Assembly (NCBI RefSeq): GCF_900142015.1
Contig: NZ_FQZN01000006.1
Span: 1-64,000, forward strand
From: Bacteroides stercorirosoris
GTDB lineage: Bacteria; Bacteroidota; Bacteroidia; Bacteroidales; Bacteroidaceae
Length of the DNA: 64,000 bases
Reading direction: 5' to 3'
The position numbers were made by a program, and so were the translations under genes. Positions 19,397 through 62,387 of the stretch are shown here, piece after piece; positions within the stretch are counted from its first letter, which is position 1, and each line of letters opens with the position of its first letter. The notes beneath the pieces were generated by a model. It made no database searches. It saw only the letters and a program-made list of their open reading frames with translations, and had not been told where the DNA came from.

Positions 19397-19424
19397 TATT
19401 GGATACATTTGGGGGTTAATGCTG

Positions 19425-19432
19425 CAAATATA
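19425..19432 (-). promoter_or_regulatory. -7 box (TATATTTG) of the acyltransferase-queH-phosphodiesterase unit
   Basis: A perfect TAnnTTTG on the minus strand, 28 bp before the ATG at 19396. It lies back to back with a plus-strand copy at 19447-19454. Confidence 0.5.
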
Positions 19433-19446
19433 GGAAACAAATTTTT

Positions 19447-19454
19447 TATATTTG
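19447..19454 (+). promoter_or_regulatory. -7 box (TATATTTG) of the DUF6377 gene, almost touching its ATG
   Basis: A perfect TAnnTTTG that ends only 5 bp before the ATG at 19460. If used, the transcript would begin at or next to the start codon, giving a leaderless or nearly leaderless mRNA. Confidence 0.4.
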
Positions 19455-19459
19455 TCCCC

Positions 19460-23981: not shown

Positions 23982-24067
23982 TGGAGATACCCCCGTAAAT
24001 CACACCGCTAAATTATCATTTATATTACGAATTAATTTTGATTGAGTACTTATTAATAAACATCAAT

Positions 24068-28388: not shown

Positions 28389-28389
28389 A

Positions 28390-43529: not shown

Positions 43530-44699
43530 TTAAAAGATAGACTTTGCGATGCCCATTTCCAGTCCGCGCAATTCTGCCAGTCCGCGCAGGCGGCCGATGC
43601 AGGAATATCCCGGATTGGTTTTCTTCTTTAGGTCATCCACCATCTGATGCCCGTGGTCGGGACGCATGGGGATAGATACTCCGCGACGTTGTTGCAGTTC
43701 GAGGAAAGCCTTCATGACGTGATACATATCTACGTCACCTTCCAGGTGGTTGGCTTCGTAGAAGTTGCCTTCTGCGTCGCGTTGCGTGCTGCGCAGGTGA
43801 ACGAAGTTGATGCGGTCGGCAAATTGCTGCATGATGGCGGCACAGTCGTTGGCGCTGCTTACACCGAGTGAACCGGTGCAGAGGCAAAGGCCGTTGCTCT
43901 TGTTGGGAACAGCGTCAATCAAAGCCTGGAAATCGGCGGCGCTGCTCATGATGCGCGGCAGACCGAGGATGGAGCAGGGAGGATCGTCCGGGTGGATGAC
44001 CAACTCTACGCCGGCTTCATCGGCAACCGGGGCGATTTCCTGCAGGAAGTAAATCAGGTTGGCACGCAGCTTCTCCGGAGTGATGTCCTTGTAGCGGTCC
44101 AGTTCCTGCTGGAATTGTTCCAGGGTGAAACTCTCTTCCGAACCGGGAAGGCCGGCAATCATGTTGCGGACAAGCAGTTGCTTGTCGGCTTCCGTCATTT
44201 GCTCGAAGCGGGCTTTTGCCTTGGCTTTCTCCTCGTCGGTGTAGTCGTTCTCGGCACCGGGGCGTTTCAATAGGAAGAGGTCGAAAGCAACGAAAGCGGC
44301 ACGTTCAAAGCGCAGGGCACGGCTGCCGTCGGGCAGTTCGTAGGCAAGGTCGGTACGCGTCCAGTCCAGTACAGGCATGAAGTTGTACGTCACGATGTTT
44401 ACGCCGCACTTACCGAGGTTGCGCAGGCTTTCCTTATAGTTATCGATGTATTTCTGGAAATCTCCCGTTTGGGTCTTGATATGTTCGTGCACAGGCACGC
44501 TTTCCACTACCGACCAGCGCAGGCCGACAGCTTCAATCATTTCCTTACGTTTCATGATTTCTTCTACCGTCCACACCTCGCCGTTGGGGATGTGGTGCAG
44601 GGCGTTCACGATGCCGGTTGCTCCGGCTTGCTTGATGTCCCACAGGCTGACCGGGTCATTAGGACCATACCAGCGCCAGGTTTGTTCGCATAATACCAT
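43530..44699 (-). CDS. uxuA: Mannonate dehydratase UxuA
   Basis: A 389-residue cytoplasmic enzyme that dehydrates D-mannonate to 2-keto-3-deoxygluconate in the hexuronate pathway. Seen: [20 protein letters not shown] at the N-terminus, [42 protein letters not shown], and the metal-binding region MRPDHGHQ near the C-terminus, all standard for UxuA. I chose the start at 44699, immediately before the conserved beginning, rather than 44720. It follows the SDR mannonate oxidoreductase by 40 bp and supplies the end of glucuronate catabolism for the lyase-GH88 products made upstream. Confidence 0.96.
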
Positions 44700-44739
44700 A
44701 CTTGAATTATTAATTATCAATTATTAAATATGAATCGGC

Positions 44740-45549
44740 TTAGATGGAGAAAGCGTCAAAACCGCCGTCTACTACCGACAGGGCACCTGTCACGAAGCTG
44801 GAAGCATCGCTGATGAGGTAGTGGATGGTTCCGAACAGCTCTTCCGGTTCGGCGAAACGTCCGCACGGAGTGTGGGCGATGATGGTCTTTGCGCGGTCGG
44901 TATATGAGCCGTCCGGGTTGGTCAGCAACGCACGGTTCTGGTTCGTCAGCAGGAAGCCCGGAACGATGGCGTTTACGCGAAGTTCGGGGCTGAATTTGGT
45001 GGCCAGTTCCGTTGCCATATAGCGGGTGTAGTTGGCAATGGCAGCTTTGGCAGAGCCGTAACCTACCACGCGGGTCAGCGGACGCAGGGCGGATTCGGAG
45101 CAGAAGTTTACGATAACACCTTTCTTATTCTTAGCCATTACGTCTACGAATGCCATTGTGGGCAGCACCGTGCCGAAGAGGTTCAGGTCCACTACCTTTC
45201 TGAAAGCGTCCACTTCCAGGTCGAGGATGGTCTTATCCGGGGCGATAGTGGCGCCGGCCATGTTTCCGCCAGCGGCGTTCAGCAGCACGTCGATGGTTCC
45301 GAAGCGTTCCAGTATGGCTTTCTTGTTCTCTTCCAGCACTTCTTTGTTCAGCACGTCCGTCATCAGGAACAGGGCTTCCGTCTTCTGGCTGAGTTCGGCT
45401 TCCAGTTCTTTACCGATTTCCTCCACGCGGTCCAGGATAACGATTTTGGCACCTTGTTCGGCGAGGTAATTGGCGATACTCTTTCCTAAGATACCGCAAC
45501 CGCCGGTCACGATAATCACTTTGTCTTTAATGTCGAATAAGTTTTTCAT
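44740..45549 (-). CDS. SDR-family D-mannonate oxidoreductase (fructuronate reductase)
   Basis: A 269-residue short-chain dehydrogenase. Seen: NAD(P) loop TGGCGILGKS (15-24), NAAGGNM, catalytic SESALRPLTRVVGYGSAKAA (Ser, Tyr and Lys), and ELRVNAIVPGFLLTNQNR. SDR-type mannonate oxidoreductases replace UxuB beside uxuA in Bacteroides; the pairing here (40 bp apart) supports reduction of D-fructuronate to D-mannonate. It has a -7 box at 45590-45597. The substrate follows from the neighbour, not from the fold. Confidence 0.87.
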   Translation of the reverse strand: MKNLFDIKDKVIIVTGGCGILGKSIANYLAEQGAKIVILDRVEEIGKELEAELSQKTEALFLMTDVLNKEVLEENKKAILERFGTIDVLLNAAGGNMAGATIAPDKTILDLEVDAFRKVVDLNLFGTVLPTMAFVDVMAKNKKGVIVNFCSESALRPLTRVVGYGSAKAAIANYTRYMATELATKFSPELRVNAIVPGFLLTNQNRALLTNPDGSYTDRAKTIIAHTPCGRFAEPEELFGTIHYLISDASSFVTGALSVVDGGFDAFSI

Positions 45550-45589
45550 GTCTTTTTCTTTTATAAAATGATTCTAAATCTCTGTGCTA

Positions 45590-45597
45590 CAAAAATA
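45590..45597 (-). promoter_or_regulatory. -7 box (TATTTTTG) of the mannonate oxidoreductase-uxuA unit
   Basis: Matches TAnnTTTG on the minus strand, 40 bp before the ATG. It implies these two genes can be expressed apart from the lyase-GH88 gene upstream. Confidence 0.45.
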
Positions 45598-45718
45598 GTG
45601 GAAAAGTAGTTCGCTTACCATACAAAACGTCTCAAAAAGATGAACTACTGTCTCAAAAAGTACTAATTATGCGAATTAGGAGTTGAAATTAACTCCTTTT
45701 TGTGCGGTTATGAATATA

Positions 45719-45795
45719 TTTAGACACGGATTACACGGATTACACTGTTGCAGTATATAAAAACAACAGTGTAATCCGTGTAATCCGTGTCTAAA
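45719..45795. repeat. Perfect 32-bp palindrome (CGGATTACAC arms)
   Basis: The arms at 45719-45750 and 45764-45795 are perfectly complementary, built from ACACGGATTACACGGATTAC; the loop is 13 nt. The sequence after the palindrome (ATCCGTGTCTAAAATCTCATT) also occurs at 773-794 in the MITE-like element. It lies between the lyase-GH88 gene and the mannonate oxidoreductase gene and could end the upstream transcript. Confidence 0.85.
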
Positions 45796-45852
45796 ATCTC
45801 ATTTATCATTTGTTTCATTTCTGCACCGTTATGAATCTGTTTCAACTATTAA

Positions 45853-48186
45853 TTACTGCCCAAGAGCAGCTTTTCTTGCCAATGCTTCCAGATAATAATA
45901 GTCGGCATAGTTGATTGGGACATCTATTTCGTCCCCTCCCGGATGGTGTCCGGTGGAGTGGAGCAGGAGGAAGCCGTAGGTTGTTTCAGGTTCGGCACGG
46001 TAATGCTGGTTGAGGCTGTCCACTATCTTGTCGGCGATGTCCTGATAACGTTTGCCGTCTTCTGCCGAAACGTAGCCACGGAGTTCATACAAGGCTGATG
46101 CCATGATGGCACCGGCAGAAGCGTCACGGGGAACGTTGGGGATGCCGGGAGCTTTCATATCCCAATAAGGGATTAAGTCTTCGGGCAGGTTGGGCAGGCC
46201 GAAAAAGAAGTCGGCGATGTGGCGCGCCTGTTGCAGGTAGGCGGGGTTCTTGGTGAAGCGGTAACACATGGTGTATCCGTAAAGCCCCCATGCCTGTCCG
46301 CGGCTCCAGAAAGAGTCGTCGGCATAGCCTTGCGCGGTTTGCCGGGCACGGACTTCGCCGGTTTCGGGATCATAGTCCACTACATGGAAAGAAGAGTAAT
46401 CCGGGCGGAAATGGTTCTTCATTGTTGTATTGGTGTGGTTGACGGCAATCTTCCAGTAGATGGAGTCGCCGGTCTCCTGGGTGGCCCAGAACAGCATCTC
46501 CAGGTTCATCAGATTGTCGATGATGACGGGGAACTTCCACTTGTCGCGGTTGTGGTCCCACGAACGGATGCTCTTTACCTTCTTGTTGTAGCGGGTTATC
46601 AGCGTCCGGGCGCTTTGCAGCACTACATCTTTGTAGGAACGTTCGCCGGTCAGCTGATAGGCTTTGCCGAAGCTGTTGTTCATCATGAAACCGAGGTCGT
46701 GGGTGCCTTTGTGCCATTTGGCTTCTTCTATCATCCAGGTGTTGCTGATGGCTTGCTGACGCCAGAAGTCATCGTTCGTGTAGGCATACATCTGCCACAG
46801 TGAACCGGGGAAGAAGCCTGAACACCAGTCGTGGGGATGTATCATCCTCAGTGAGCCGTCTTTGTTGAGGCTGCGCGGTGTGACGCGGTGCTTGCACTGG
46901 TTGTCCCCTTCTTTTCTGGCTTTATCGGCGCACTTCAGGGCAAACTGGAGTTGTCCGCAGGCGAAAGCATAGGCGTTGTCCACATCGTCGGCTTCTACCC
47001 ATAGCAGGTTGAAGCGGTCTTTCCAGTTGATGATGCGGTGGGCTTTATAGAGTTCCAGGTAGTCTTTCCGTGCAGGGTTGAACAAGCTGGTGCGGTATAA
47101 ATCTTTGCAGAACTCCTGCTGTTTATGTTCCCACTCGCTGATTTGACGGTAAGGCCAGTCTTTCACTTCTTTTCCCACGTAGGGAACCAGGAAGTCCATA
47201 GCTTTGTAGAAGTTGCGCCCGTCTGCCGAGGTGGCGTTGTCAATGGAGATTCCGATCTTCCGTGCCATCATGAAGATGTCGATGAAGTGAGACAGGTTGA
47301 ACTGTGAGTAACCGAAGGCAAGGGTGCGACGCAGTTCGTGCGGTTGCTTTCCGTCCGGTTCTATCTGGGTGAAGATGCGCTTCTGGGGAATGGCATTGAT
47401 GACTTCCTGCGCTACTTTCGTATTTCCTGCGTACAAGGCGAAAGCGATGACTTGTGCGTCGTGCGCCGTACTGTGGTTATTGGCTTGGCGTGCTTCTTCC
47501 TGTCCCTGCGGACTGTTCAGTATCCAAGTCAGCAACTTGCCGAACCATGCTTTCAGTTGCTTGGAATCTTTCGGGGTGAAGGCCTTTGACCCCTCCAGCA
47601 ATTGCACGGCATCCAGCATCTCGACGAAGGAATAGGTATCGATGACCCCATAGCAACGCCCTTTATTGTTGTTGTGTCCCGGTATCATCTGGGCATATTC
47701 CAGGTTGGGATTCATGCGCGTATCCTTATTAAAGAACCATACGCGTATCAGTTCCGTAGCTTTTTGGGCATACTTCTCGTCACCGCTGAAGTACCAGGCA
47801 AGGGCAAGGGTGGTGACACGTTGGGCGGTTGCCCCGAGGCGGTTACGGTCCAGCTTGTTCAGTTCCGGGTTCGATTCACCGTCACGGCTGATGTAGGGCA
47901 GTCCGTCCGGTTTGGTCGGGTCGGGCCAGAAATAGCGTGCCTGACTCATGTAGTCATGCTTGTCTCCGCTGCCGGGTGTCTTCTCTTTCATCATGACGGA
48001 CAAGGGCTGTGCGTCAAGCGTTCTTTCAGCATCCGTTATCAGTTCCTGATAAGCAGCCGAAAAGTACGGTTGATGTAATGATTGTTTTACTCTCTCCAGG
48101 TGTGCCTTGTCCCAGATGGACTGTGCATGTATGCTGCTTGCCGCAAGCATCAGACTGGTGATAATTAAGCAGATTTTAGCTCTCAT
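45853..48186 (-). CDS. Fused glucuronan lyase (PL38-like) and GH88 unsaturated glucuronyl hydrolase
   Basis: A 777-residue exported two-enzyme fusion. Residues 1-21 are a signal peptide. Residues about 25-390 form an alginate-lyase-superfamily domain of the PL38 type, with GHNNNKGRCYGVIDTY, the NNHS motif (236-239) and FGYSQFNLSHFID (291-303). Residues about 400-775 form a GH88 domain with HDLGF (Asp497) and IIDNLMNL (Asp557), the two catalytic aspartates of unsaturated glucuronyl hydrolases. The lyase would release 4,5-unsaturated glucuronate ends, and the GH88 half would remove them as the hydrolysis product. PL38 members I know of act on glucuronan. It lies 18 bp after GH2. Confidence 0.85.
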   Translation of the reverse strand: MRAKICLIITSLMLAASSIHAQSIWDKAHLERVKQSLHQPYFSAAYQELITDAERTLDAQPLSVMMKEKTPGSGDKHDYMSQARYFWPDPTKPDGLPYISRDGESNPELNKLDRNRLGATAQRVTTLALAWYFSGDEKYAQKATELIRVWFFNKDTRMNPNLEYAQMIPGHNNNKGRCYGVIDTYSFVEMLDAVQLLEGSKAFTPKDSKQLKAWFGKLLTWILNSPQGQEEARQANNHSTAHDAQVIAFALYAGNTKVAQEVINAIPQKRIFTQIEPDGKQPHELRRTLAFGYSQFNLSHFIDIFMMARKIGISIDNATSADGRNFYKAMDFLVPYVGKEVKDWPYRQISEWEHKQQEFCKDLYRTSLFNPARKDYLELYKAHRIINWKDRFNLLWVEADDVDNAYAFACGQLQFALKCADKARKEGDNQCKHRVTPRSLNKDGSLRMIHPHDWCSGFFPGSLWQMYAYTNDDFWRQQAISNTWMIEEAKWHKGTHDLGFMMNNSFGKAYQLTGERSYKDVVLQSARTLITRYNKKVKSIRSWDHNRDKWKFPVIIDNLMNLEMLFWATQETGDSIYWKIAVNHTNTTMKNHFRPDYSSFHVVDYDPETGEVRARQTAQGYADDSFWSRGQAWGLYGYTMCYRFTKNPAYLQQARHIADFFFGLPNLPEDLIPYWDMKAPGIPNVPRDASAGAIMASALYELRGYVSAEDGKRYQDIADKIVDSLNQHYRAEPETTYGFLLLHSTGHHPGGDEIDVPINYADYYYLEALARKAALGQ

Positions 48187-48204
48187 GGCGTTTTTGTTTT
48201 GAAG

Positions 48205-50871
48205 TTAATAAAGTTTTCTGAGTTTTATACCGTTCAGAAAGCTTTTTCCATTCCGAACAGGGAAGCGTATTTCAATTTTATTCCGAAAGTTTGTAATATT
48301 GTATCTTTTCCGCAAAGCATGGAAGTAACCGCTCTCCCGGCAAGGAGAAAAGTCTTCTTCTACAGTTTCATCATTAACGATTATGCTGAAGCAGTTCTCG
48401 CGGCTTTCTACATCGGAATTCCGTCCTAACTGGTAGGCGGTGGCTGCATTCTCCCGGAATATATCTGTAAAAAGAAATTCTATCTCGTAAACTCCGTTGG
48501 GAACATCGAAACAATAGCCTTCAATGTCATTGCGAAGGGTTTGGAACAACGGTCCGTCATTGGTATTCTCAACCTGTGTCTGACTACTTTTGCTTTCTCC
48601 GCCAATATATCCCCAACTGTTTTCAGTGTAGGGCTGATCGGGTAGCCATGTGAGCCGGCTTTCATCGGAAGTATAGAAGCAATTGCTGCCTACGTTGACG
48701 GCAAGCTCCAGATTCCGTAAGTTTGTTTCATTCAGATTCGCAGGGGCAGGGGTGAAGCTGAGGTGGATGCCGTCTTCAATGGTACGGAGATTACGGGCAG
48801 CTTCTTTGCTTTCAGCTTTGGCGGAAATGAAGTGTTCTTTCCGGCTGAACGGTACTTCAAATATAACGGTATAATTCTCAGTCTTTTGCTTGCCCAGAGA
48901 CTTGCCGTCAATGAAAAGTTCCACTTCCGGAAGGTTGGTATATACTTTGACCGGCAGCATTACCGGGGCTTCTCCCTGCTGTATGCCGGTGCGGTGAATC
49001 CAGTCGCGGCTGGCGATGTGCAACACGGGAATGTCTTCTCGCCAGGCTGCCTTGTAGTAATAGTACACGTCTTTTGGGGTACGATCCGAATATACCAGTC
49101 CTTTGTTGTTGATGCGCGGCATAGATTCATCACGCAGGGCGGAGGAGAAATCGATAAAGTTCCAGTGCGTTCCGCCACAGACGTAAGGCGTTTCTTCCAG
49201 TACGGGCAGGTAATGCTCCAGGTACTTTTGCTGATACTCGATGCTGAAATCGAAAGCGTTCGGTTGTAGCGAATGTATGCGCTTGTCAGAACCTGCGCCG
49301 TATTCGCTGACAATCATGGGGTGCGAAGGAAACTTTTTGTGTTGTTCTGCCAGGAAGCGTTCGAAGCCTGTAAGGTTGCCTCCATACCAGCCTTGATACA
49401 GGTTCCAGCCGACAATATCGGTAATATTGCCCAATCCTACCTCGTTGTAACTGTTGCTGCCGTGAAAGGCCATAGTGCTGACACGAGTGGAGTCTTCTTC
49501 TTTCAAGACTTTCTCCAGACGATTGGCGAGTGCCAGTGTCCGTTCCAGCACGGGTTTCAGTTCTTCTTCTTTTTTATAGCGGCGCTGGGTGACGAGTAAT
49601 ATCTCATTCATATATCCCCAGGTGATGATGGAGGGGTGGTTATAGTGCTGGCGTATCATTTCCCGCAGATTGCTTTCGCAGTTTTCTGCGTAACCCGGAG
49701 TGTCGGGCACGATGTCGATGATGGGTATTTCTTCCCAGGCCAGCATGCCGAGTTTGTCACACATTTCCAACAGGGCATCATCTTGCGGATAATGGGAGAT
49801 GCGGATAAAGTTGGCGCCCATCTCTTTCATCAGCATCATGTCGCGGCGGTGCATCTCGTCCGTCAGTGCGACTCCGATGGGCTTTTGGTCCTGGTGGCGG
49901 CAAATGCCGCGTAATTTATAAGGCTTTCCATTGAGGGAGAAGCCTGTCTTGCCATCGAAGCCAAACCAGCGGAAACCTGTATGATGATTACTGCGGTCGA
50001 GGATGGCTTTTGTTTTTTTATCGCGCAGAATGCTTTCTACCCTGTAGAGATGAGGTGTCTCGGGTGTCCATAATCGGGGGGACAGGATAGGGGCGGTTTC
50101 GGTATGAAAAGAGTATAATTCTCCACCTTTTATCTGGATAGACTGTTTCTGGGTTTGGGCAATACTTCCGTCGGGATTGTATACGATATGCTCCAGTTCA
50201 AGAGATGCTTTCTGTTCTGCATCGTTCTTTATCTCTCCGCGAATAAGTATCGTGCCTTTTTCTTCGGACACTTGCGGGGTGCTGATGAATATCCCGTCCG
50301 AGCCGTGGTTGGTCAGATGGAAATGCTGTTTGGATACTGCCGTGAGCCATACATCCCGGTAGATGCCGCCAAAGAATGTAAAGTCGGCGGAGATAGGGGG
50401 GATATCCTGCCGGGCGTTGTCTACACGGATAGCGAGAGAGTTGGGAGAGTTGAACGAACAGAGCGAAGTGATATCGAATGTGCAGGCGGTATATCCGCCG
50501 TTATGTTCGCCTGCTTCTTTACCGTTGATGTAGATGGCAGCGGCCTTGCTGGCCGCATCCAGTTTTAGGAATACCTGTTTGTCTTGCCAATGCTGCGGCA
50601 ACGTCAGTGTACGGCGATACCAACCTGTTCCCTGGTAATACTTTTTTTCGGTATATGCATCCGTATTCCATGTGTGCGGGAGATGTATGCTGTTCCACGC
50701 ACTATCATCGTAAGCCGGAGAAGCTGCGGCCTCGCACTCACCTTTATGGAATTTCCAACCGTCGTTGATTGTTTTACTTTCATGCTGTGCGCAAACTGTC
50801 TGGGACAGGAACAGAATCATGGGTATCAGTATCCGGAGTTTCCGGGCTGGAAATGTTTTCTCTTTACTCAT
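48205..50871 (-). CDS. GH2 family hydrolase with C-terminal malectin-like domain (possible beta-glucuronidase)
   Basis: An 888-residue exported enzyme. Seen: signal peptide (to CAQ near 29), GH2 sugar-binding domain (about 35-180), Ig-like domain (185-300), barrel with acid/base Glu423 (YMNEI) and nucleophile Glu523 (VSEYGAG), an Asn-Asn-Lys triplet (588-590) before GLVYSDRTPKD, then an Ig-like and a malectin/di-glucose-binding-like domain (about 720-885). The NxK triplet is required by beta-glucuronidases, but NDKG-type versions also occur in Bacteroides beta-galactosidases, so it does not settle specificity. Glucuronidase fits the neighbouring lyase-GH88 and uxuA; galactosidase is the main alternative. 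Confidence 0.88.
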   Translation of the reverse strand: MSKEKTFPARKLRILIPMILFLSQTVCAQHESKTINDGWKFHKGECEAAASPAYDDSAWNSIHLPHTWNTDAYTEKKYYQGTGWYRRTLTLPQHWQDKQVFLKLDAASKAAAIYINGKEAGEHNGGYTACTFDITSLCSFNSPNSLAIRVDNARQDIPPISADFTFFGGIYRDVWLTAVSKQHFHLTNHGSDGIFISTPQVSEEKGTILIRGEIKNDAEQKASLELEHIVYNPDGSIAQTQKQSIQIKGGELYSFHTETAPILSPRLWTPETPHLYRVESILRDKKTKAILDRSNHHTGFRWFGFDGKTGFSLNGKPYKLRGICRHQDQKPIGVALTDEMHRRDMMLMKEMGANFIRISHYPQDDALLEMCDKLGMLAWEEIPIIDIVPDTPGYAENCESNLREMIRQHYNHPSIITWGYMNEILLVTQRRYKKEEELKPVLERTLALANRLEKVLKEEDSTRVSTMAFHGSNSYNEVGLGNITDIVGWNLYQGWYGGNLTGFERFLAEQHKKFPSHPMIVSEYGAGSDKRIHSLQPNAFDFSIEYQQKYLEHYLPVLEETPYVCGGTHWNFIDFSSALRDESMPRINNKGLVYSDRTPKDVYYYYKAAWREDIPVLHIASRDWIHRTGIQQGEAPVMLPVKVYTNLPEVELFIDGKSLGKQKTENYTVIFEVPFSRKEHFISAKAESKEAARNLRTIEDGIHLSFTPAPANLNETNLRNLELAVNVGSNCFYTSDESRLTWLPDQPYTENSWGYIGGESKSSQTQVENTNDGPLFQTLRNDIEGYCFDVPNGVYEIEFLFTDIFRENAATAYQLGRNSDVESRENCFSIIVNDETVEEDFSPCRESGYFHALRKRYNITNFRNKIEIRFPVRNGKSFLNGIKLRKLY

Positions 50872-50908
50872 GGTATATTTATTGTTGATTTGTTAGCTGA
50901 GAAAGAAA

Positions 50909-50948
50909 GGAGGCAGTAACCAGGCCGGTTATGCCAGTTGCTGCCTCC
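50909..50948. terminator. Inverted repeat between susD and GH2
   Basis: GGAGGCAGTAAC (50909-50920) pairs with GTTGCTGCCTCC (50937-50948), one G-T pair. On the minus strand it lies between the susD stop and the GH2 start and may reduce transcription of the enzyme genes relative to susCD. Confidence 0.55.
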
Positions 50949-51010
50949 AAACCTTCATTCAATCTTTCTACTTATATCCTTTGAAAACCAATCAAAAAAC
51001 TGTCTTTTCT

Positions 51011-52987: not shown

Positions 52988-53007
52988 ATCGTTTATTAAT
53001 TAGATGT

Positions 53008-56000
53008 TTAGAATGTAACTTCTGCTCCAAAAGTCCAAGTGCTGGAGATGGGGTATTTGGCACCTGAGTTTGCATCACCCAGTTCCGGATCCCAATATTT
53101 CACATCGTCCCAGGTCTTCAGGTTGGTGCCTTGTACGTAGAGGCGCAGGTTGGTGAGGCGCAATGACTTCAGTTGCTTCTTGTTGAACTGGTAACCGAAT
53201 TCCACGTTCTTCAGACGGAGGAAACTTGCGTCACGATACCACCAGGTGCTCGGTTGCAGGTTGTGTGCAAAAGTATTGTTGCGCAAGCGCGGGTAGAGCA
53301 CGTTGTCGTTGTAGGGATCAGATGCTTTCCAGCGGCTCATAGCCTCCATACGTGCGGAAGAAGCGTCCTTACCCTGGTTGAACGGCATGAAGTTGGATGC
53401 CTTGCTCATCAGGTTGATGGAACAGCCCGTCACACCCTGGAAGAAGATGCCGGCAAAGAATCCTTTCCATTCGGCGTTCAGTGAAAGACCATATACGCTA
53501 CGCGGGGTCTTGTCCAGATGACCGTTATGGTAGGTTTTGTCATCGTCGTTGATGACACCGTCATTGTTCAAGTCGCGGTACTTGATGTCACCGGGTGCTA
53601 CGGCTGCTCCCGGATCGGCTACACCGGATTTCAGTTGGTAGCTTTCGGCACCGCTCACAGGATCTACAGTGATGTTGAAATCATCGGGTGTATAGAGTCC
53701 GTCGGCGATGTAGAGGAAAGGAGTCCACAATGACATACCCGTGAGATCTTGGTAGCTGTATTTATGTCTGATTTCATCCGTTTCCACAATCTTGTTCTTC
53801 GCATACGTGTAGTTGGCACGGAACGTCAGGTTCAGATTGCCTACGTGTTGTTTGAAAGTCAAACTTCCGTCAACACCCTTGTTGCTTACGATACCATAGT
53901 TCTGGGTAGGGTTGGATTGCAGACCGCTCATTGAGGGAACCGTGTTACGGGTAATCAGGATGTCCTTACGACGGTTGGAGAAGTAGTCCATAGAGAGGTC
54001 TAACTGTCCGTTCAACAGACCGAGGTCGAAACCGAAGTTGGTTTTGTCCTCAATCTCCCAACGCAGGTTGGCGTAGTAGGCGCGGTTTTCGCTCAATCCG
54101 CCGAACCAGTTCTGTGCATTACCGTTTGATATGCCTGATATACCCAGGTTGAGGCCGCCGGCATCGGTGTTCATTGCTTCCTGGTAGGGGAAACGGGTAT
54201 TGCCCAACTGGTCGTTACCGGTACGTCCATAGGATGCACGCAGTTTCAAGGTACTGATTACTTTCTGTACAGGTTCGAAGAACTTTTCGTGGCTTACATA
54301 CCAGGCTCCACCCACAGCGGGGAAGATACCCCAACGGTGACCCGGGGCGAAGTTCTCACTACCTGTCATACCGAAGCTACCTTCGATGGTGTAGCGGTTG
54401 TCGTAAGTATAAGAACCACGACCTACGACGCTTTGTTTACGATAAGGAAGCAGGTTGAGGCCACCGACGTTCTGGTTCTGGGTTTCCTTTTGGTTGTAGA
54501 GCAGCAATCCCGTAACATCGTGCTTGTCGCTAAAGTTACGCTTGTAGTTGAGGGATGCCTCAATGTAGATCTTCTTGTTACCGCCGGATGAACCACTTGA
54601 GGGGTTACTCAGTGCCGAACCCGCTTCCAATGACTTGAATATCAGGTTGCCATCGGCGTCGCGTCCGGTAGCCGTAAAGGTAGCGGGCGACATGGTGCGG
54701 TTGACATACTGGTTGGAGTTGGCATCGAAGCTGACGCTACCTCTTACAGAAAGTCCCTTCGTGATGAAGTCCAGGTCTTGTTCCAACAATACCTTGCTTT
54801 GGAATGTGGCATCCCAACTCTTACTGTAACCACTGAAGTAGAGGAAGTTGTAAGGGTTCTGACGAAGACCCGAATTGTCATAGTTGGGGTGCTGTGCGGC
54901 TGAACCGTCCGAATAGATCTGCGGATAGAGGTGCACAGGTTGCAATGTCATACCACCGAAGATGTCAGCGGCTGTCTTGGAGGGAGCCGTACGGTTGATG
55001 TACTGTCCGGACATATCTACAGACATGCGGGTGGTCTTGCTCAGTTCGAAGTCGATATTGGAACGCAGGTTGTAGCGGTCGAAGCTGATGTTTGAATCGT
55101 AGTCGGCGTTCTTCTTCTCTTTATATACACCGTCTTGCGTATAGTAGGCACCCGATACGAAGAAGCGTACGCGGTCGCCACCACCACGGAAGTTGATGGT
55201 GTAGCGTTGGCTGCTGGTGTGGTCGCGCAACATGCTCATCCAGTCTGCATCCGGATAGAGGTCGGGGTCTACACCGCTACGGTATTTTTCCAGGTCAGCA
55301 TCGCTCACCGGTGCTGTGTAGTTGGCGCGCGGGTTGCCGTTGCTGTTCCAGTCTGCTTCGTTGTATAAGCTCAAATAGTCGTAAGAACTCATGAGGTTGG
55401 GCAGGCGGAGCGGCGTGGCGTAGCCGTATTCGGCTGACATGCTGACAACCGTCTTCTGTGATTTACCACGTTTGGAAGTAATCAATACTACACCGTTAGC
55501 ACCTTCGGCACCATACACGGCCGTTGCGGCGGCATCCTTCAGAATAGAGAATGTTTCGATTTCATCTACGTCAATGTCATTCATTTTACGGGGTACACCG
55601 TCTACCAATACCAGTGGGTCTGTTCCACCGGCATACGAACTGATACCACGGATAAAGAACTGAGCATCGTCCCAACCCGGTTCACCCGAACGCTGTACGG
55701 CAATCAGACCGGACAGCTTACCGGCGATGTTGTTGGTAAGGTTGGCGCTCTTAACACTCAATTGAGCCGGTCCTACGGTTGACATGGAGCTTACTACGCT
55801 CTCTTTCTTCTGCTTACCGTAACCCACAACCACTACTTCTTCCGTGGCGATGGCATCCATCTCCATTCGGAGGTTAAAAGTGGTTTCGTCGGCTTTCACT
55901 CTGTGATCTACACTGACGAATCCGATATAGCTGAATTCCAGCACTTCGCCGGGAGCTGCTTCGATGGAGTATCGTCCCTCGACATCACTGATGACACCGC

Positions 56001-56202
56001 GGTTGGTGGTACCTTGTACCCTGACGGTGGCACCGATGATGGGGTCACCATTGGAATCGGTCAACAAACCGCTGATGCGTTGTTTTTGTTGCTGTACGGT
56101 TTCAATACCGTTGGCTTCGTCAGCAGCGCTGGCGCGTAGAGTGGCAGGTTGTGCTACCAAACCAAGGGCAAACATGGCTGCTATATAATATCTTTTTTTC
56201 AT
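53008..56202 (-). CDS. SusC-like TonB-dependent receptor (second locus)
   Basis: A 1064-residue outer-membrane importer. Seen: signal peptide (1-26 or so, ASAADEANG after it), a carboxypeptidase-D regulatory-like domain (about 43-120; ISGLLTDSNGDPIIGATV), the EEVVVVGYGKQ Ton-box region, a plug with RGISSYAGGTDPLVLVDG, and a barrel ending STWTFGAEVTF. Imports glycan fragments made by surface enzymes together with SusD. It is 42 bp downstream of the surface glycan-binding lipoprotein gene. Confidence 0.95.
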   Translation of the reverse strand: MKKRYYIAAMFALGLVAQPATLRASAADEANGIETVQQQKQRISGLLTDSNGDPIIGATVRVQGTTNRGVISDVEGRYSIEAAPGEVLEFSYIGFVSVDHRVKADETTFNLRMEMDAIATEEVVVVGYGKQKKESVVSSMSTVGPAQLSVKSANLTNNIAGKLSGLIAVQRSGEPGWDDAQFFIRGISSYAGGTDPLVLVDGVPRKMNDIDVDEIETFSILKDAAATAVYGAEGANGVVLITSKRGKSQKTVVSMSAEYGYATPLRLPNLMSSYDYLSLYNEADWNSNGNPRANYTAPVSDADLEKYRSGVDPDLYPDADWMSMLRDHTSSQRYTINFRGGGDRVRFFVSGAYYTQDGVYKEKKNADYDSNISFDRYNLRSNIDFELSKTTRMSVDMSGQYINRTAPSKTAADIFGGMTLQPVHLYPQIYSDGSAAQHPNYDNSGLRQNPYNFLYFSGYSKSWDATFQSKVLLEQDLDFITKGLSVRGSVSFDANSNQYVNRTMSPATFTATGRDADGNLIFKSLEAGSALSNPSSGSSGGNKKIYIEASLNYKRNFSDKHDVTGLLLYNQKETQNQNVGGLNLLPYRKQSVVGRGSYTYDNRYTIEGSFGMTGSENFAPGHRWGIFPAVGGAWYVSHEKFFEPVQKVISTLKLRASYGRTGNDQLGNTRFPYQEAMNTDAGGLNLGISGISNGNAQNWFGGLSENRAYYANLRWEIEDKTNFGFDLGLLNGQLDLSMDYFSNRRKDILITRNTVPSMSGLQSNPTQNYGIVSNKGVDGSLTFKQHVGNLNLTFRANYTYAKNKIVETDEIRHKYSYQDLTGMSLWTPFLYIADGLYTPDDFNITVDPVSGAESYQLKSGVADPGAAVAPGDIKYRDLNNDGVINDDDKTYHNGHLDKTPRSVYGLSLNAEWKGFFAGIFFQGVTGCSINLMSKASNFMPFNQGKDASSARMEAMSRWKASDPYNDNVLYPRLRNNTFAHNLQPSTWWYRDASFLRLKNVEFGYQFNKKQLKSLRLTNLRLYVQGTNLKTWDDVKYWDPELGDANSGAKYPISSTWTFGAEVTF

Positions 56203-56244
56203 ATATCTATACTTAATTGTTTATCTATACTTTAAGAAAGTTGG

Positions 56245-57642
56245 TCATTCGTCCATTTCATACAAGGGGAGTTCGTCCAAGGCCTTTATCCAGAGTCCGT
56301 TCGGGCTGGTGCTGGTTTCTACAGTCATCACCATGTATTTGCCGGCGGGCCAGGCATCGTTGGCGTTGAAGTTACCGTCACTGGCGTACTTGATGTAATT
56401 GCCGCCTTCTTTTGCACTATATGCTCCGGGACCTATCCATTCCAATCCCCATCCTTTCTGTCCGAAGAACTTGAAGTTGACGCCATTTACGTTTTGCCCT
56501 ACAAGCATTATCAGTTCATACTTGGTATCGGTGAGCGGAACCAGGTTGAATGCTTTGCCCGTGTTCCAGTTAATGTTGTTCTGAGCGTATGATGGGAATC
56601 CTATCTTATCATTACCAATCACCCACATAGCAGTGGCATTCTGTGTGCTTGATGAAGAAGCGTTTTCCAACTGTTCCATCATGATTGCTTTCATACCTTT
56701 ATCCAGCGTGAGTTTGTACTTACCGTCTCTTCCGCGGAAGTGGAGCAGAGTTTCGTCTCCATCTACGAGGTCAAACCAGGTGGGGTTCTTCCAAAGTTCG
56801 GCATACTCTTCTTTGATGCCGCTGATTTTGATGATGTCGTCCTTCTTGAATTCGGTCTCAACGTAGAATACATTGCCCGATCCGTCGAATTCCATAAACT
56901 TGTTCTGCGTGTCGAAGCGTATACCGAATTTCGGGAATGGGGCACCTTCAAAAGTCAGGGTGTTGAATGTGATTTCATACTTGCCGTCTTCATCATAGCC
57001 TGTGGTTTCGAAGCCGATACCTTTGGGGGCATTGAGGGCTATCTTGCCATTGTCCATACCGAATTGCAATTTGTTGCCTTGCAGGTAGGGGTTGTTTGTC
57101 CCGTCAGAATAGGCCGGTGCTATGATAGATGCTTCCATGTCGGCCGGGAAAGCTTCACGTGCTTTGTATTCATACTCTTTGCCGGGGACAGGAGTCATGG
57201 TGTATTCTTTGCCATTGGCAGCCACCAACTTCAATGTTTTGTACTTGGGTCGTTCGATGGCAACGGTCATTTCTTTGCTGTCGTTGCTGAAACGCTCGTT
57301 CTGGATGCGCAGGATAACCTTTGCATCTCCGTCGGGTGTGTTTTTCTGGTAGGGGGCCAGTACTTTTCCGCTGTACTTTCCATCGGCTTTCAGACTGTAG
57401 AAAGCTTCGGATACCATTTCTTCTCCATAATAGAGTTGAACCTTGGCCTGGTTGATTTTCACGCCTCCGCTTTTTACTTCGAAGTCGAAGGTGATGCTAT
57501 CGCCCATGTAAGCTTTTTCACTGCCTACAAAGGATACGATAGTCGAGCTGCCGTGATCATCGAACTGGTCAATCTCATCTTTGCACGATGTCATGCCGAT
57601 AAGGCTGAGTGCCATCATGCCGAGCAAAAATCGATTTCTCAT
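56245..57642 (-). CDS. Surface glycan-binding lipoprotein (DUF5125/DUF5121-type SGBP)
   Basis: A 465-residue lipoprotein, lipobox GMTSC with Cys20. Seen: an N-terminal Ig-like domain (about 35-130; VSFVGSEKAYMGDSITFDF), a central region (FGMDNGKIALNAPKGIGFET) and a C-terminal region (about 340-465; FFGQKGWGLEWIGPGAY) resembling SusE/F-type modules with exposed aromatic residues. This layout matches the SGBP found in the Bacteroides thetaiotaomicron beta-1,6-glucan locus as I recall it. It lies between GH30 and susC and should hold glycan at the cell surface. Ligand is not proven. Confidence 0.8.
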   Translation of the reverse strand: MRNRFLLGMMALSLIGMTSCKDEIDQFDDHGSSTIVSFVGSEKAYMGDSITFDFEVKSGGVKINQAKVQLYYGEEMVSEAFYSLKADGKYSGKVLAPYQKNTPDGDAKVILRIQNERFSNDSKEMTVAIERPKYKTLKLVAANGKEYTMTPVPGKEYEYKAREAFPADMEASIIAPAYSDGTNNPYLQGNKLQFGMDNGKIALNAPKGIGFETTGYDEDGKYEITFNTLTFEGAPFPKFGIRFDTQNKFMEFDGSGNVFYVETEFKKDDIIKISGIKEEYAELWKNPTWFDLVDGDETLLHFRGRDGKYKLTLDKGMKAIMMEQLENASSSSTQNATAMWVIGNDKIGFPSYAQNNINWNTGKAFNLVPLTDTKYELIMLVGQNVNGVNFKFFGQKGWGLEWIGPGAYSAKEGGNYIKYASDGNFNANDAWPAGKYMVMTVETSTSPNGLWIKALDELPLYEMDE

Positions 57643-57693
57643 AATCTATAAATTTAAAATTAAAAAAAGTGATGTATTATATTTAAGTCTCTG

Positions 57694-59247
57694 TTATTTC
57701 CATTTGAAAGAGTTTACCGAGCGCGGCTGCAAGTTGCAGTTTGCCGAGTGCTTCTTGCCTGAGGCGTCGGGGGCGGTGAGCACGATACTCTTGGCCGAAC
57801 TGCTTTTGTTGATGATGACAAAGGCATAGCTTCCATCTGTATTCTTGAAGGCGCTGTAGGCAATGTCATTGTCGGTGTATCCGCTTGTCCCGATTCGTAC
57901 GGCATCGGGCTTTACCACTGCTGAGAGGTGACAGATCATGTAGTAGTGCGAATTCATGTAAATGGTCTTCAAGTCGCTCATGTTCAGGTCTACGGCTCCG
58001 AAGCAGGTTTGGCATCCACCGGGACGGTTGGGCTGCCCGCCGTTGTTGCTGGGTACGGCTCCGTTGAAGTCTGTCTCCAGCATCAGGTTCCAGATGGTCA
58101 CTGCGCTGCAATAGTTGTTGATGGTGCCTATACCGATGCTTTCCATATTGGAAAGGAGGGTTTTGGTCAGGTCGTGGCCGTTATTCCAAGTGCCGATGGA
58201 AGATTCTGTAAAGATCAGGTCTTTCTCGGGGGCACGCTGGTAGACGTTGAGCAGTTCGCTGCGGTTGCCTCCATAGTCGTGGTAGGCGGCTCCGGCCAGG
58301 TATTTGGCAGCTTCGGGATCGTTGTATATCTGGTAGGGATAACCATTCTGGTCACCCTTGTTATCATAATTATAGTTGTGGTCGTAGGCGTAGATTCTGG
58401 TGGAAAGTCCGGCTGCCTCGAAGGCGGGGCCCAGCACTTTCACGAAGTCACGCTGTTCTTTCCATTCCATCACCAGCGAGGCCGAGTTTTTGTTGTTGAG
58501 AGGTTCGTTCTGTATGGTGACGGCGTTGATGGGGATGCCGGCTGCCTGGAATGCTTGTACCCACTTCACGAAGTAGGTGGCATAGTCGGCGTAGTATTCG
58601 GGTTTCAACTGCCCGGCGGTGTATTCCCGGTTTTGATAGACAGGGTATTTCTGATAGTCTTTCATCCATAGAGGGCAGGTCCAGGGTGAAGCCAGTATGC
58701 GGATATTCGGATTGATGGCTATGATTTCCTTTAATATAGGTATCACGTAATCTGTTTCTTCCGAAGTCAGGGCGAAGTTCTCTATGCCCGGTGTGTCGCA
58801 GCAGGTATATTCTCTTAAGGAGAAGTCGGAGCAGCCGATGGCAATGCGCACATAGCTGCTTCCGTAGCCTTCGGTCTGCGAATAGGTCTTTTTGAGGAAG
58901 GCTGTCCGGTCTTCCTGTTTCATCAGTTTTAGGCAGAAAGCTGATGAGCCTGTGAGTGCAGCTCCGAATCCCTGCATGGTCTGGTAGGTCTGCTCTGGAT
59001 TCAGCAGAATGTTTTTGGGTGACATACTGGCTTGGGGTTCGAATTCCACCGTAGATTCCTTTAGATCATAGGTACGGGTGTCAGTGGTGGTAAGCATATA
59101 GGCTTGTAGACCGATAGGGGGCTCCGGATTTTCACCACCGGGTGTTTCGGGGGGATTTGTTTCGTCGTTGTCCGACCCGCATGCACTGCCGCTGATGAGC
59201 AGGCTGAATAGGAACACGCACGTGAATAGATAAGATGCTTTTTTCAT
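57694..59247 (-). CDS. GH30 family (subfamily 3-like) surface lipoprotein endo-beta-1,6-glucanase
   Basis: A 517-residue lipoprotein, lipobox SGSAC with Cys23, followed by a Pro/Glu-rich linker (TNPPETPGGENPEPP). The barrel has acid/base Glu248 in IQNEPL and nucleophile Glu348 in IFTESSIG; the C-terminal beta-sandwich follows. It aligns along its length with the GH30 at 21240-22715, but differs in lipidation. GH30_3 enzymes of this form cut beta-1,6-glucan, and this is the first gene of the minus-strand PUL, which reads from a -7 box at 59293-59300. Confidence 0.92.
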   Translation of the reverse strand: MKKASYLFTCVFLFSLLISGSACGSDNDETNPPETPGGENPEPPIGLQAYMLTTTDTRTYDLKESTVEFEPQASMSPKNILLNPEQTYQTMQGFGAALTGSSAFCLKLMKQEDRTAFLKKTYSQTEGYGSSYVRIAIGCSDFSLREYTCCDTPGIENFALTSEETDYVIPILKEIIAINPNIRILASPWTCPLWMKDYQKYPVYQNREYTAGQLKPEYYADYATYFVKWVQAFQAAGIPINAVTIQNEPLNNKNSASLVMEWKEQRDFVKVLGPAFEAAGLSTRIYAYDHNYNYDNKGDQNGYPYQIYNDPEAAKYLAGAAYHDYGGNRSELLNVYQRAPEKDLIFTESSIGTWNNGHDLTKTLLSNMESIGIGTINNYCSAVTIWNLMLETDFNGAVPSNNGGQPNRPGGCQTCFGAVDLNMSDLKTIYMNSHYYMICHLSAVVKPDAVRIGTSGYTDNDIAYSAFKNTDGSYAFVIINKSSSAKSIVLTAPDASGKKHSANCNLQPRSVNSFKWK

Positions 59248-59292
59248 GTTAGTATGACTTAATTAGGTTTAACAAAATGGTTTTATCCGCTG

Positions 59293-59300
59293 CAAATATA
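59293..59300 (-). promoter_or_regulatory. -7 box (TATATTTG) of the PUL operon
   Basis: A perfect TAnnTTTG on the minus strand, 45 bp before the GH30 ATG, in the intergenic region shared with the divergent regulator. Confidence 0.5.
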
Positions 59301-59474
59301 TGCGTGTAATGAGGTTGTTTCCTAAAAAAACGCTACATCAAAACTTTCTCATTGATTAGTTTTGACTACATCAGAACTTTCTCTTGGCTTAATTATTTAA
59401 TTGATAATTAAATGTTTATTATAATAAATTAGCTACATCTGAAAATAATTCTTTTATTTATAGATAAAATACTC

Positions 59475-59482
59475 TATCTTTG
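59475..59482 (+). promoter_or_regulatory. -7 box (TATCTTTG) of the regulator gene
   Basis: A perfect TAnnTTTG, 28 bp before the regulator ATG at 59511. No certain -33 TTTG. Confidence 0.5.
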
Positions 59483-59510
59483 TTTTTATAAGAATGAAAC
59501 GTTAACTGCT

Positions 59511-62387
59511 ATGAAACAAAAGCTCTCTTGTTTTTATATTCTTCTCATCTTTATATCTATTCCTGTAAGTGCCGGATGGCAACGTCCCGTGAGTAACTAT
59601 ACCCGCCATACTTATAAAGCCGGTAATCAGAATTGGAATATTCAGCAGCATGATAATGGCTGGATATATGCAGCAAATAATAAAGGACTATTGGAGTTTG
59701 ATGGTGTAGAGTGGAATATTTACCCGATTCATAATGCTAAAACGCGTGCGGTAAAGGTGGGGTATGACGGACGGATTTATATCGGTGGAATGGAGCAATT
59801 TGGTTATTTTACGCCAAATCGTCTTGGCGGGTTGGAGTATACTTGCCTTTCTGATAGCTTATCTCCCAATGTGAATGTGGGAGTCATTTGGAATATTCTG
59901 CTGGATAGAGACCGGGTATATTTTCAATCGGATCGTCATTTCTTTTATATAGAGAAAGATGTGGTGAATAGAATAGATTATTCTTCGGAGATCTATACTT
60001 CATTGATTGTACAGAACAAGCTATATATTGTTTCCGCTGAAGGGTTGTTGGTGTTAAACGGGACAGAATTCAGACGGGTATCGGATTCTTCGACAATAGG
60101 CGCTACGGTTAAGATTGGAGGACTATTACCCTATCAGGACAGTCTGCTGGTAGTGACCCGGGATAATGGTCTTTTCATTCATGATGGCACTTCTTTCACT
60201 AAATATCCCACTGTAGCCGAAGAGTTTTGCCGTAAAAACCGGATCTTTTGTGCGGCGTTGCAAGATTCATTGCTGGCATTGGGCAGCATTCAAGGTGGAG
60301 TTTGTCTTTTAAATCTGAAGACGAATGAAATGGAGGTGATATCTACGGAGAATGGTTTGCAAAACAAAACGGTGTTAAGTATGATGTTTGATAAGGCCGG
60401 TAGTCTCTGGTTAGGTTTGGATAATGGCATCGATTGCATTCATTTGAATGCACGGCTTGCTTCACTCTATGGAGGTAAACCGGTGATCGGTTCGGGGTAT
60501 GCTTCATGTAGTTATCGCGATAAATTCTATTTTGCAACGAATCAAGGTTTGTATTGTTCTACTCTCCCGGAACAGTTGAGCCAGAGAAATCCTATTAACT
60601 TTGTACCGGGTACGGGTGGTCAGATGTGGTCGCTTCACCAGTACGACGATAAGCTTTTCTGTTGTTCGGATAATGGCATCTTTATAATAGATGGAGATCG
60701 TATGGAGTATCTTAATAATCCTAAAGGTGTATGGGGGGTAGTTCCGGTAGATGCCCGGAAAGACGTGCTGATTGCGGGAACTTATAGCGGGTTGTATTTG
60801 CTTACAAAAAAAGGAGCGGATTGGACGGTAGAAAGTTATATAGAAGGTTTCAGCCGTTCATGTAAGGATATGCTGATGGAAAATTCTACCCATATTCTAT
60901 GGATAGGAAATAAAGAGAATGGAGTTTCCCGTTTGACTTTGACAGACGACTTACGAAAGGTAGAAAAAATAAAGGATTACAATAGTATAAACTTTCCACG
61001 TGGTTATGATGCATGCTTGCTGCGGGTGAAGGATGAAGTAACTATAGCTTCCCATTATGGTTTATGGCGCTATGATCAGAGTCGTGACTGTCTGGAAGCA
61101 TGTACCTGGCTCGAGCAATTATTGGAAGGCAAGGCAGCATATACCTATATGAAGATAGATTCATTGCAGAATATCTGGTACGTAGTGGATGGTGCATTGA
61201 AAGTGTTGCATTATGATGCCGTTAAGCGGGAATATCGTCGGGTGAATAATGAATTGTTTTTGAAGGGGGCATTGATAGAGAACTTTGAAGATGTACATCT
61301 TTATAAAGCTAATCAGGCAATTGTCGGAACAGAAGAGGGCTTTTCATTGATAAAAATGGATAGTTTGCAGACGCAGCGCCCACCGCTGACTTTGCAAATC
61401 AGAAAAGTGTATCTGACGGGATTACGTGATTCTCTTATTTATGGTCGCAGTTATTTGTATGATACGGCTCCAATAGTGATTCCTTATTCTCAGAATTCGA
61501 TGAGGATAGAATATAGTGTGAATAATTATAATAAGGCACAGACGGTCTTATATTCATATCAGTTAAGTGTAGGCGGTGAGAAAGAAGCCTGGAGCGAATA
61601 CAGTGAGAATAATGTGAAAGAATTCACAGGTTTGCATGAAGGCAAGTATGTGTTTAGTGTGAAGTTGTTGACTGATGGGGATCAGGAACCGGTGGAGACT
61701 TCTTTTGCTTTTGAAATCCTGCCGCCCTGGTATCGTACATGGTGGAGCTATCTGGTGTATTCGGTAGTTGTAGTATTGTTGTTTTACTATATGTATTATC
61801 GTATTTCAGAAGGCCGTAAGCGTTTGTTGATGCAAAAAGAACTGGAACTTTACCGGCAAGAACAGAAATTCCAGAAGGAGAGTGATTTGAAAGATAAGAA
61901 GATTGATATACTGAAGGAAGAAAATTTGCAGTCAGAGTTACGCCATAAATCAGAAGAATTGATTCGTACTACACTCAATATTGTGCGCAAGAATGAAATC
62001 CTGTTGGATATCAAGAAAGAGGTGCTGGGCATTTCCCATTCCATCAGTGAAGAGAATCTTGTCTCCCTTCGCCGGAAGACACTCCGGTTGTTGGGACAGA
62101 TTGATACGAACATTGAGCATGATGACGATTTGCAGGCTTTTCAGAGTACTTTTGATTCGGTTCATCATGATTTCTTCAAAAAACTGGAAGAGACATTCCC
62201 CGAACTGAATAATAAAGAAAAATTGCTTTGTGCTTATATCAAGATGAATCTGCTTTCTAAGGAGATTGCTCCGCTGCTGAATATCTCTTTGCGCGGAGTC
62301 GAAATCAGCCGTTACCGTCTGCGCAAAAAGTTAGGTATAGAAGAAGGAGGAAATCTTGCGGAGTTCCTGCAAAAGTTCTCAAAATGA
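59511..62387 (+). CDS. Propeller-sensor LuxR-type transmembrane regulator without kinase
   Basis: A 958-residue membrane regulator. Seen: signal peptide (1-21), propeller-type sensor repeats (about 40-615), a Y_Y_Y-like domain (about 640-735), a membrane helix (743-763), coiled coil (765-830) and C-terminal HTH (about 900-955; LLSKEIAPLLNISLRGVEIS) of the LuxR type. There is no HisKA, HATPase or receiver domain, so ligand binding must pass straight through the membrane to the HTH, unlike the HTCS at 820-5118. It diverges from the PUL starting with GH30, matching the usual position of a local regulator. Confidence 0.9.
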   Translation: MKQKLSCFYILLIFISIPVSAGWQRPVSNYTRHTYKAGNQNWNIQQHDNGWIYAANNKGLLEFDGVEWNIYPIHNAKTRAVKVGYDGRIYIGGMEQFGYFTPNRLGGLEYTCLSDSLSPNVNVGVIWNILLDRDRVYFQSDRHFFYIEKDVVNRIDYSSEIYTSLIVQNKLYIVSAEGLLVLNGTEFRRVSDSSTIGATVKIGGLLPYQDSLLVVTRDNGLFIHDGTSFTKYPTVAEEFCRKNRIFCAALQDSLLALGSIQGGVCLLNLKTNEMEVISTENGLQNKTVLSMMFDKAGSLWLGLDNGIDCIHLNARLASLYGGKPVIGSGYASCSYRDKFYFATNQGLYCSTLPEQLSQRNPINFVPGTGGQMWSLHQYDDKLFCCSDNGIFIIDGDRMEYLNNPKGVWGVVPVDARKDVLIAGTYSGLYLLTKKGADWTVESYIEGFSRSCKDMLMENSTHILWIGNKENGVSRLTLTDDLRKVEKIKDYNSINFPRGYDACLLRVKDEVTIASHYGLWRYDQSRDCLEACTWLEQLLEGKAAYTYMKIDSLQNIWYVVDGALKVLHYDAVKREYRRVNNELFLKGALIENFEDVHLYKANQAIVGTEEGFSLIKMDSLQTQRPPLTLQIRKVYLTGLRDSLIYGRSYLYDTAPIVIPYSQNSMRIEYSVNNYNKAQTVLYSYQLSVGGEKEAWSEYSENNVKEFTGLHEGKYVFSVKLLTDGDQEPVETSFAFEILPPWYRTWWSYLVYSVVVVLLFYYMYYRISEGRKRLLMQKELELYRQEQKFQKESDLKDKKIDILKEENLQSELRHKSEELIRTTLNIVRKNEILLDIKKEVLGISHSISEENLVSLRRKTLRLLGQIDTNIEHDDDLQAFQSTFDSVHHDFFKKLEETFPELNNKEKLLCAYIKMNLLSKEIAPLLNISLRGVEISRYRLRKKLGIEEGGNLAEFLQKFSK

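Follow-up and report, generated by a model that had tools for sequence, protein, structure and literature searches.

Gene content and organization of the locus

The first 64,000 nucleotides of contig NZ_FQZN01000006.1 of Bacteroides stercorirosoris (assembly GCF_900142015.1; this whole stretch is referred to as the window) contained, at 43530-62387, a polysaccharide utilization locus (PUL) in which genes for a GH30_3 glucanase and a SusCD transporter were followed by genes assigned to glucuronic acid (GlcA) release and catabolism. Genes were identified using Pfam and NCBIfam profile searches and sequence comparison with the Protein Data Bank (PDB), and signal sequences were assigned by eye. 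The transcription order on the minus strand, from 59247 to 43530, was GH30_3, surface glycan-binding protein (SGBP), SusC, SusD, GH2, PL38-GH88, SDR and UxuA.

The leading gene (57694..59247) encoded a GH30_3 endo-beta-1,6-glucanase (NF053856). It was followed by genes for an SGBP (56245..57642; DUF5125, DUF5016 and DUF5121), a SusC-like TonB-dependent transporter (53008..56202; TIGR04056, placed by tree) and a SusD-like lipoprotein (51011..52987; PF07980). A GH2 enzyme of the beta-glucuronidase type with a malectin-like tail (48205..50871) began 139 bases after susD, and 18 bases after GH2 came a predicted exported PL38-GH88 fusion (45853..48186) that joined a lyase to an unsaturated glucuronyl hydrolase. 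The last two genes were an SDR-type D-mannonate (fructuronate) oxidoreductase (44740..45549; NF006132, 341.6 against a cut-off of 281; KduD model, 129.6 against 369) and the D-mannonate dehydratase uxuA (43530..44720; equivalog TIGR00695, 596.5 bits, cut-off 199.55). The GH30, SGBP and SusD proteins were lipoprotein-like, GH2 and the fusion appeared exported with no lipobox, and SDR and UxuA carried no signal. The genes named in the original prediction were all present where it had placed them, and its uxuA, SDR, GH2-malectin, SusC, SusD, SGBP and GH30 assignments were confirmed by Pfam, NCBIfam or PDB matches.

Divergent from these genes was a membrane sensor-regulator with a C-terminal LuxR-type helix-turn-helix (59511..62387, plus strand), for which only weak matches were obtained. 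It had been described as a LuxR-type propeller regulator. The divergent position and a weak C-terminal LuxR-type match were found, while the Y_Y_Y domain scored 20.8, under its cut-off of 26.6.

Predicted enzymes for glucuronic acid

The lyase half of the fusion contained an Alginate_lyase domain and aligned with PDB 3nfv over residues 25-372. The GH88 half aligned with 3wiw over residues 435-774 and also resembled unsaturated glucuronyl hydrolases; no GH88 model was reported by Pfam for this half. These alignments bore out the predicted fusion of a PL38-like lyase to GH88, PL38 being the name for enzymes of the 3nfv/8bdq type. In alignments with 3nfv and with enzymes of the 8bdq series, the lyase half kept the NNH and Tyr of the Alginate_lyase domain; next to this Tyr it had a Gly, as 3nfv does, where 8bdq has a His. 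Mutant chains in the 8bdq series suggest that the NNH and Tyr residues matter for the lyase.

The GH2 protein was a close homolog (1575 bits to 6d50, residues 6-888) of the enzyme in PDB 6d50/5uj6, which comes from another species and is presumably a beta-glucuronidase of B. uniformis. None of the NCBIfam equivalog cut-offs was reached by the GH2 protein, the best score being 497.6 against 950 (NF050095). An NxK motif was present as NNK in RINNKGLV; in loop 8, this motif marks GH2 beta-glucuronidases (PMC12243196). UxaC and a KduI-family gene (84.5 bits) were found elsewhere in the genome.

Comparison with the B. thetaiotaomicron beta-1,6-glucan locus

The order of BT3309-BT3314 is SusR-SusC-SusD-GH30-SGBP-GH3 (PMC5481569). 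This canonical order was also found in locus L153, and in L139 it was found lacking SusR within the stretch covered. The locus in the window, ordered regulator, then on the opposite strand GH30-SGBP-SusC-SusD, had been said to match it; instead, GH30 and SGBP lead here, and SusR, SusC and SusD lead there.

Its transporter had likewise been called a beta-1,6-glucan-type core. The SusC was 27-31% identical to canonical-type SusC proteins (canonical-type relatives, rather than BT3310 itself), the SusD had no match at E 1e-8 to the canonical SusD of relative G039, and the SGBP was 33% identical over 407 residues to that of G039 (compared in place of BT3313, against which a likeness above 35% would be expected of this type). 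A FastTree phylogeny of 62 SusC proteins was built, in which 41 rows were grouped and 21 ungrouped rows were left out of clade counts. Canonical SusC (6), the SusC' of PL38-GH88 loci (19) and window-type SusC (5) each fell on one side of a branch with a local support of 100. The window type grouped with the cores of G017 and G035, and next with two relatives. By order, SusC identity and SusC tree, a transport core of the BT3310-3313 type was rejected.

Likeness to the B. thetaiotaomicron locus lay in GH30_3, which was 61% identical to 5ngk over 463 aligned residues and kept both catalytic glutamates (Glu248 and Glu348), and in the three SGBP domain families, the same as in the canonical-type SGBP of L139. 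The differences were the order, the SusC clade, the regulator type, the lack of a GH3 in the operon and the added uronate genes.

A published counterpart and candidate glycans

In B. cellulosilyticus WH2, the proteins of GUL-2 (BcellWH2_02537-02542) all rise on Fusarium venenatum beta-glucan, and BcellWH2_02537 is a GH30_3 assayed as an endo-1,6-glucanase on pustulan (PMC10229575). The match to GUL-2 was made through the ortholog in DSM 14838 (G042) and not through the WH2 sequence. DSM 14838 carried the same six consecutive genes as the window, GH30-SGBP-SusC-SusD-GH2-fusion, and its GH30 residues E247/E347 bore the numbers printed for 02537 (E248/E348 in the window). Based on this order and these residues, BcellWH2_02542 is most likely the PL38-GH88 fusion. 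The available text of PMC10229575 mentions 02542 once, with no function, and 02541 is missing from the cloning list as shown, yet the results call it expressed. GUL-2 as published differs from the locus in the window in that SDR-uxuA is not included and the GH2 is read as acting on beta-1,3-glucobiose.

The string 'glucuron' occurred zero times in the main texts of PMC10229575 and PMC7553746 (supplements were outside this search), and no paper naming BcelPL38 was found among open-licence papers. Judging by the main texts of open-licence papers, the glucuronic acid half of the published locus seems to have been overlooked. The Fusarium glucan of PMC10229575 was obtained by alkali extraction of cell-wall material, and the terms 'uronic' and 'monosaccharide composition' were absent from the text of that paper as available. 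A plain glucan as the inducer of GUL-2 is neither shown nor excluded by the WH2 data.

The original prediction knew of no described locus with this gene set and of no such glycan. Both statements are superseded: the six-gene type is in print as GUL-2, and GlcA-bearing fungal beta-glucans have been described. EtGIPL1a of Echinodontium tinctorium is a beta-(1,3)(1,6)-glucan with beta-(1,4)-GlcA, 9.2% 4-GlcpA by linkage (PMC9568501), and GLPC2 of Ganoderma contains 6-linked Glc and 4-linked GlcA (PMC10574063, a review). Fusarium is named among fungi with acidic polysaccharides (PMC9568501). Glycans of the EtGIPL1a or GLPC2 type would be candidate substrates of this locus.

Distribution of the PL38-GH88 fusion

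In a scan of a genome collection limited to one per species, 79 loci were obtained from the best 80 of 171 matched stretches. The in-frame PL38-GH88 fusion was present in 41 of the 79 loci; 26 of these 41 contained GH2 and 18 contained uxuA. Among the fused loci, SusC' was found in 20, the window type in three (B. timonensis, B. oleiciplenus and B. cellulosilyticus), a DUF4466-marked third type in three and the canonical type in none. The remaining 15 had no typed SusC, some being ended by contig edges. The SusC'D' loci with PL38-GH88 and GH2 (Bacteroides, Alistipes, Dysgonomonas and Muribaculaceae) share a homologous fusion with the window and have an unlike SusC/SusD pair.

Of the 41 fused loci, 23 had a GH30, GH5 or GH3 gene in the covered flank, versus two of the 38 other loci (Fisher 6e-7, kinship ignored). 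The two non-fused loci with such a gene were L051, with PL38 alone, and L052, with PL38 and GH88 in broken frames. GH30 itself was in the flank of only five of the fused loci. Thirteen fused loci had GH30, GH5 or GH3 on the strand of the fusion: three of the window type, and ten in four other arrangements with GH5/GH3 (or GH30/GH3) about 10 kb or less from PL38-GH88. These were fusion-GH5-GH3-GH2 (L027, L031); GH2-fusion-GH2'-GH5-GH3-SDR (L032, L033 and L036, all Alistipes); GH2-fusion-SusR-SusC'-SusD'-GH5-GH3 (L034, L035, L037, L041); and GH30-SGBP-GH3-gene-GH2-fusion (L054). A reading frame of 262 codons on the opposite strand intervenes in L041, so a shared strand is no proof of one operon. 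L031, from a metagenome-assembled genome titled Lachnospiraceae, had the form typical of Bacteroidota, and a binning error is likely.

At least 13 of 100 relatives carried the fusion among the matches listed (in G055, in two pieces). By hand count, GH5 was present in 11 of the 13 fusion-bearing relatives listed versus 12 of the 87 others; fusion and GH5 shared a contig in eight of the 11, at distances of 4.5 to 36 kb.

One genomic slot with differing transporters

In the window and in G056, G042 and G022, the locus was preceded by S26 and wbqC; in G017 and G032, it was preceded by wbqC. Behind this anchor the transporter was of the window type in the window, G042 and G056, and SusC' in G022 and G032. 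In G017, a relative of the window core stood in tandem with SusC'D', with a GH18 between them. G043 had the third type and SusC' in tandem, the anchor not being in view, and its fusion was 90-93% identical to that of the window despite the other transporters. In G043 (L131/L132), the third-type SusC, accompanied by DUF4466 and a pectate-lyase-like protein, lay across a regulator gene from SusC', and GH2 and the fusion were on the same contig.

In L152 (G036), a complete canonical-type locus with the same GH5 and GH3 adjoined wbqC-SDR-uxuA, with no PL38-GH88 between. Both L152 and L156 contained wbqC, SDR-uxuA and GH3-GH5, and no PL38-GH88 was found within the stretch covered. The layout of L152 indicates that SDR-uxuA were neighbours of the glucan locus there and were not acquired with the lyase. 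SDR-uxuA seem to have occupied the slot for longer, and in most loci they have their own promoter-like box.

A second glucan cassette in the window

A SusR-GH30_3-GH5-GH3 cassette was found at 19409-26290 on the plus strand, 17 kb past uxuA and lacking SusCD and SGBP. It encoded a SusR-family regulator (19409..21052; NF058541, 576 versus 480), a second GH30_3 (21240..22715; NF053856, 869.6 versus 700), a GH5 enzyme (22734..23981; PF00150) and a GH3 of the beta-glucosidase type (24038..26290; PF00933/PF01915, with no NCBIfam equivalog cut-off reached). Its genes corresponded to the enzyme half of a locus of the canonical beta-1,6-glucan type. The GH3 partner, reported earlier as absent, was missing only between 43530 and 62387. 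Fimbrial (Mfa1/Mfa2, fimbrillin) and related families at 27819-38963 separated both glucan cassettes; in G042, reading frames of similar size (sizes only) occupied the same gap. Nearness of the cassettes was rejected as proof of a functional link, since it may be synteny within Bacteroides (L152, L156).

At the other end of the window (820-10216) lay a hybrid two-component regulator with a divergent SusC and SusD, a DEAD-box helicase next on the far side and no enzyme seen with them in the window.

Intergenic regions

The gap 5' of the SDR gene (45550..45852) contained a conserved promoter-like region and an inserted palindrome. The upstream region was conserved in five aligned loci. In 17 of 22 loci (a raw count, with no shuffle baseline), a TAnnTTTG box lay 36-67 bases ahead of the end of the stretch; in two (L044, L049) it was farther off, and in three (L032, L036, L145) it was absent. 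A two-box promoter pattern was not found in the gaps before SDR, and three matches occurred in the window versus 1.23 expected. With its own TAnnTTTG box in most loci, SDR-uxuA is unlikely to be part of the susCD operon here. As to transcription of GH2 to uxuA independent of susCD, which the original prediction named as a refutation, SDR-uxuA lie outside the published GUL and have their own promoter-like region, and 02541-02542 rise with GUL-2.

The palindrome (45700-45849; 33 pairs, one G-T; fold z -10.48) did not occur in B. timonensis, B. oleiciplenus and B. cellulosilyticus, and its half-motif occurred eight times in the genome, including the two here. A conserved terminator was rejected on these grounds in favour of an inserted repeat. 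Between susD and GH2 (50872..51010, minus strand) was a hairpin, a possible attenuator (fold z -2.87; 1 of 200 shuffles equal), which may dampen GH2 and the fusion. Scans for sigma-70 promoters and terminators were at shuffle level (29 versus a mean of 25.8, and 20 versus a mean of 21.4).

Proposed function and alternatives

With about even confidence, we read the locus as a PUL for fungal beta-1,3/1,6-glucan carrying 4-linked beta-glucuronic acid. A surface GH30_3 would cut the beta-1,6-glucan stretches, and SGBP and SusCD would import the fragments. The exported PL38-GH88 would cut at internal 4-substituted GlcA and then remove the unsaturated end, GH2 would take off saturated beta-GlcA, and the GH30_3-GH5-GH3 cassette would complete breakdown of the neutral glucan. 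Saturated GlcA would pass through UxaC, SDR and UxuA to 2-keto-3-deoxygluconate. Such a route, with fungal glycans as candidates, had been predicted and is supported by the UxaC and KduI-family genes and by the glycans described. The strongest hint that glucanases and fusion are functionally linked comes from the differing gene arrangements around the fusion, because closeness within Bacteroides may be inherited.

Several observations weigh against this reading. Closeness of the two cassettes within Bacteroides may be only inherited synteny, and 18 of 41 fused loci had no GH30, GH5 or GH3 in the covered flank. The window GH30 passed the NF053856 model ('endo-1,6-beta-glucanase BT3312') narrowly, at 708.6 versus a cut-off of 700. 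A GH30 was not found in the G035 core, and in G056 (L126 9861-10318) it was a remnant left by internal deletion, with SGBP, SusC, SusD, GH2 and fusion open. Neighbours of wider relatives of the window SusCD were scanned at seven loci; four of these had M60 peptidase, F5/8-type or BT_3987-like neighbours, and no glycosidase family was found among the ten proteins scanned. PL38 is polyspecific according to a figure legend (glucuronan, alginate and glycosaminoglycans). Finally, the GH2 BcellWH2_02541 is reported to cleave beta-1,3-glucobiose (PMC10229575), and no glucuronide test of it appears in the text of that paper as available.

The strongest competitor, though an unlikely one, is that the locus serves two separate polymers, a neutral beta-1,6-glucan and a glucuronan-type polyuronide, which meet in fungal walls. 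Glucuronan is a known PL38 substrate (same legend), a C. pinensis PUL is aimed at chitin and beta-glucan together (PMC10449523), and the G017 core carries GH18; against this, the lyase is exported-looking and by eye non-lipoprotein, which would leave a long polyuronide with no surface cutter in the locus.

It is more doubtful that GH30 to SusD form a plain beta-1,6-glucan locus for neutral beta-glucan, beside uronate genes left over from an older glucuronide locus. The induction of WH2 on Fusarium beta-glucan would fit (PMC10229575), as would the hairpin after susD and the core, which may be a replacement since most fusion loci have a different one. However, 02541 and 02542 are among the rising GUL-2 proteins (PMC10229575), the spacings from susD to GH2 and from GH2 to the fusion are 139 and 18 bases, and in other arrangements glucanase genes lie on the same strand as the fusion.

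A host or other acidic glycan (glycosaminoglycan-like or a glycoprotein glycan), with GH30 a side activity, is improbable: an Akkermansia PL38 is active on glycosaminoglycans, the GH88 half of the fusion also matches the unsaturated chondroitin disaccharide hydrolase 3wux and relatives of the SusCD have M60 peptidase and BT_3987-like neighbours, but no hexosaminidase family and no sulfatase-led gene was found among the scanned window proteins, the GH30 meets the endo-1,6-glucanase equivalog and its WH2 ortholog was assayed on pustulan (PMC10229575). A phosphodiesterase-family protein at 16713-17663 had a secondary Sulfatase match (E 2e-12).

Turning to the origin of the proposed PUL for GlcA-bearing fungal glucan, the GH2/PL38-GH88 module would have entered a wbqC / SDR-uxuA slot that already adjoined a canonical beta-1,6-glucan locus. 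Within the B. cellulosilyticus group, the native SusC'D' would then have been replaced by the GH30-SGBP-SusC-SusD cassette of another lineage. More tentatively, and at less than even confidence, these loci could belong to a widespread unrecognised system for GlcA-bearing fungal beta-glucan, with the fusion specific for 4-substituted GlcA in a beta-glucan chain and the slot swapping whole transporter cassettes (three SusCD types) around constant enzymes. The slot provides a natural example of transporters that vary while the enzyme set stays the same.

If the reading as a PUL for GlcA-bearing fungal beta-glucan is right, only half of the fungal-glucan locus published for a common gut Bacteroides has been read, and the reported activity of its GH2 on beta-1,3-glucobiose conflicts with the sequence family of that enzyme. 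The PL38-GH88 fusion would gain a testable natural substrate in acidic mushroom glucans, and perhaps in those of Fusarium.

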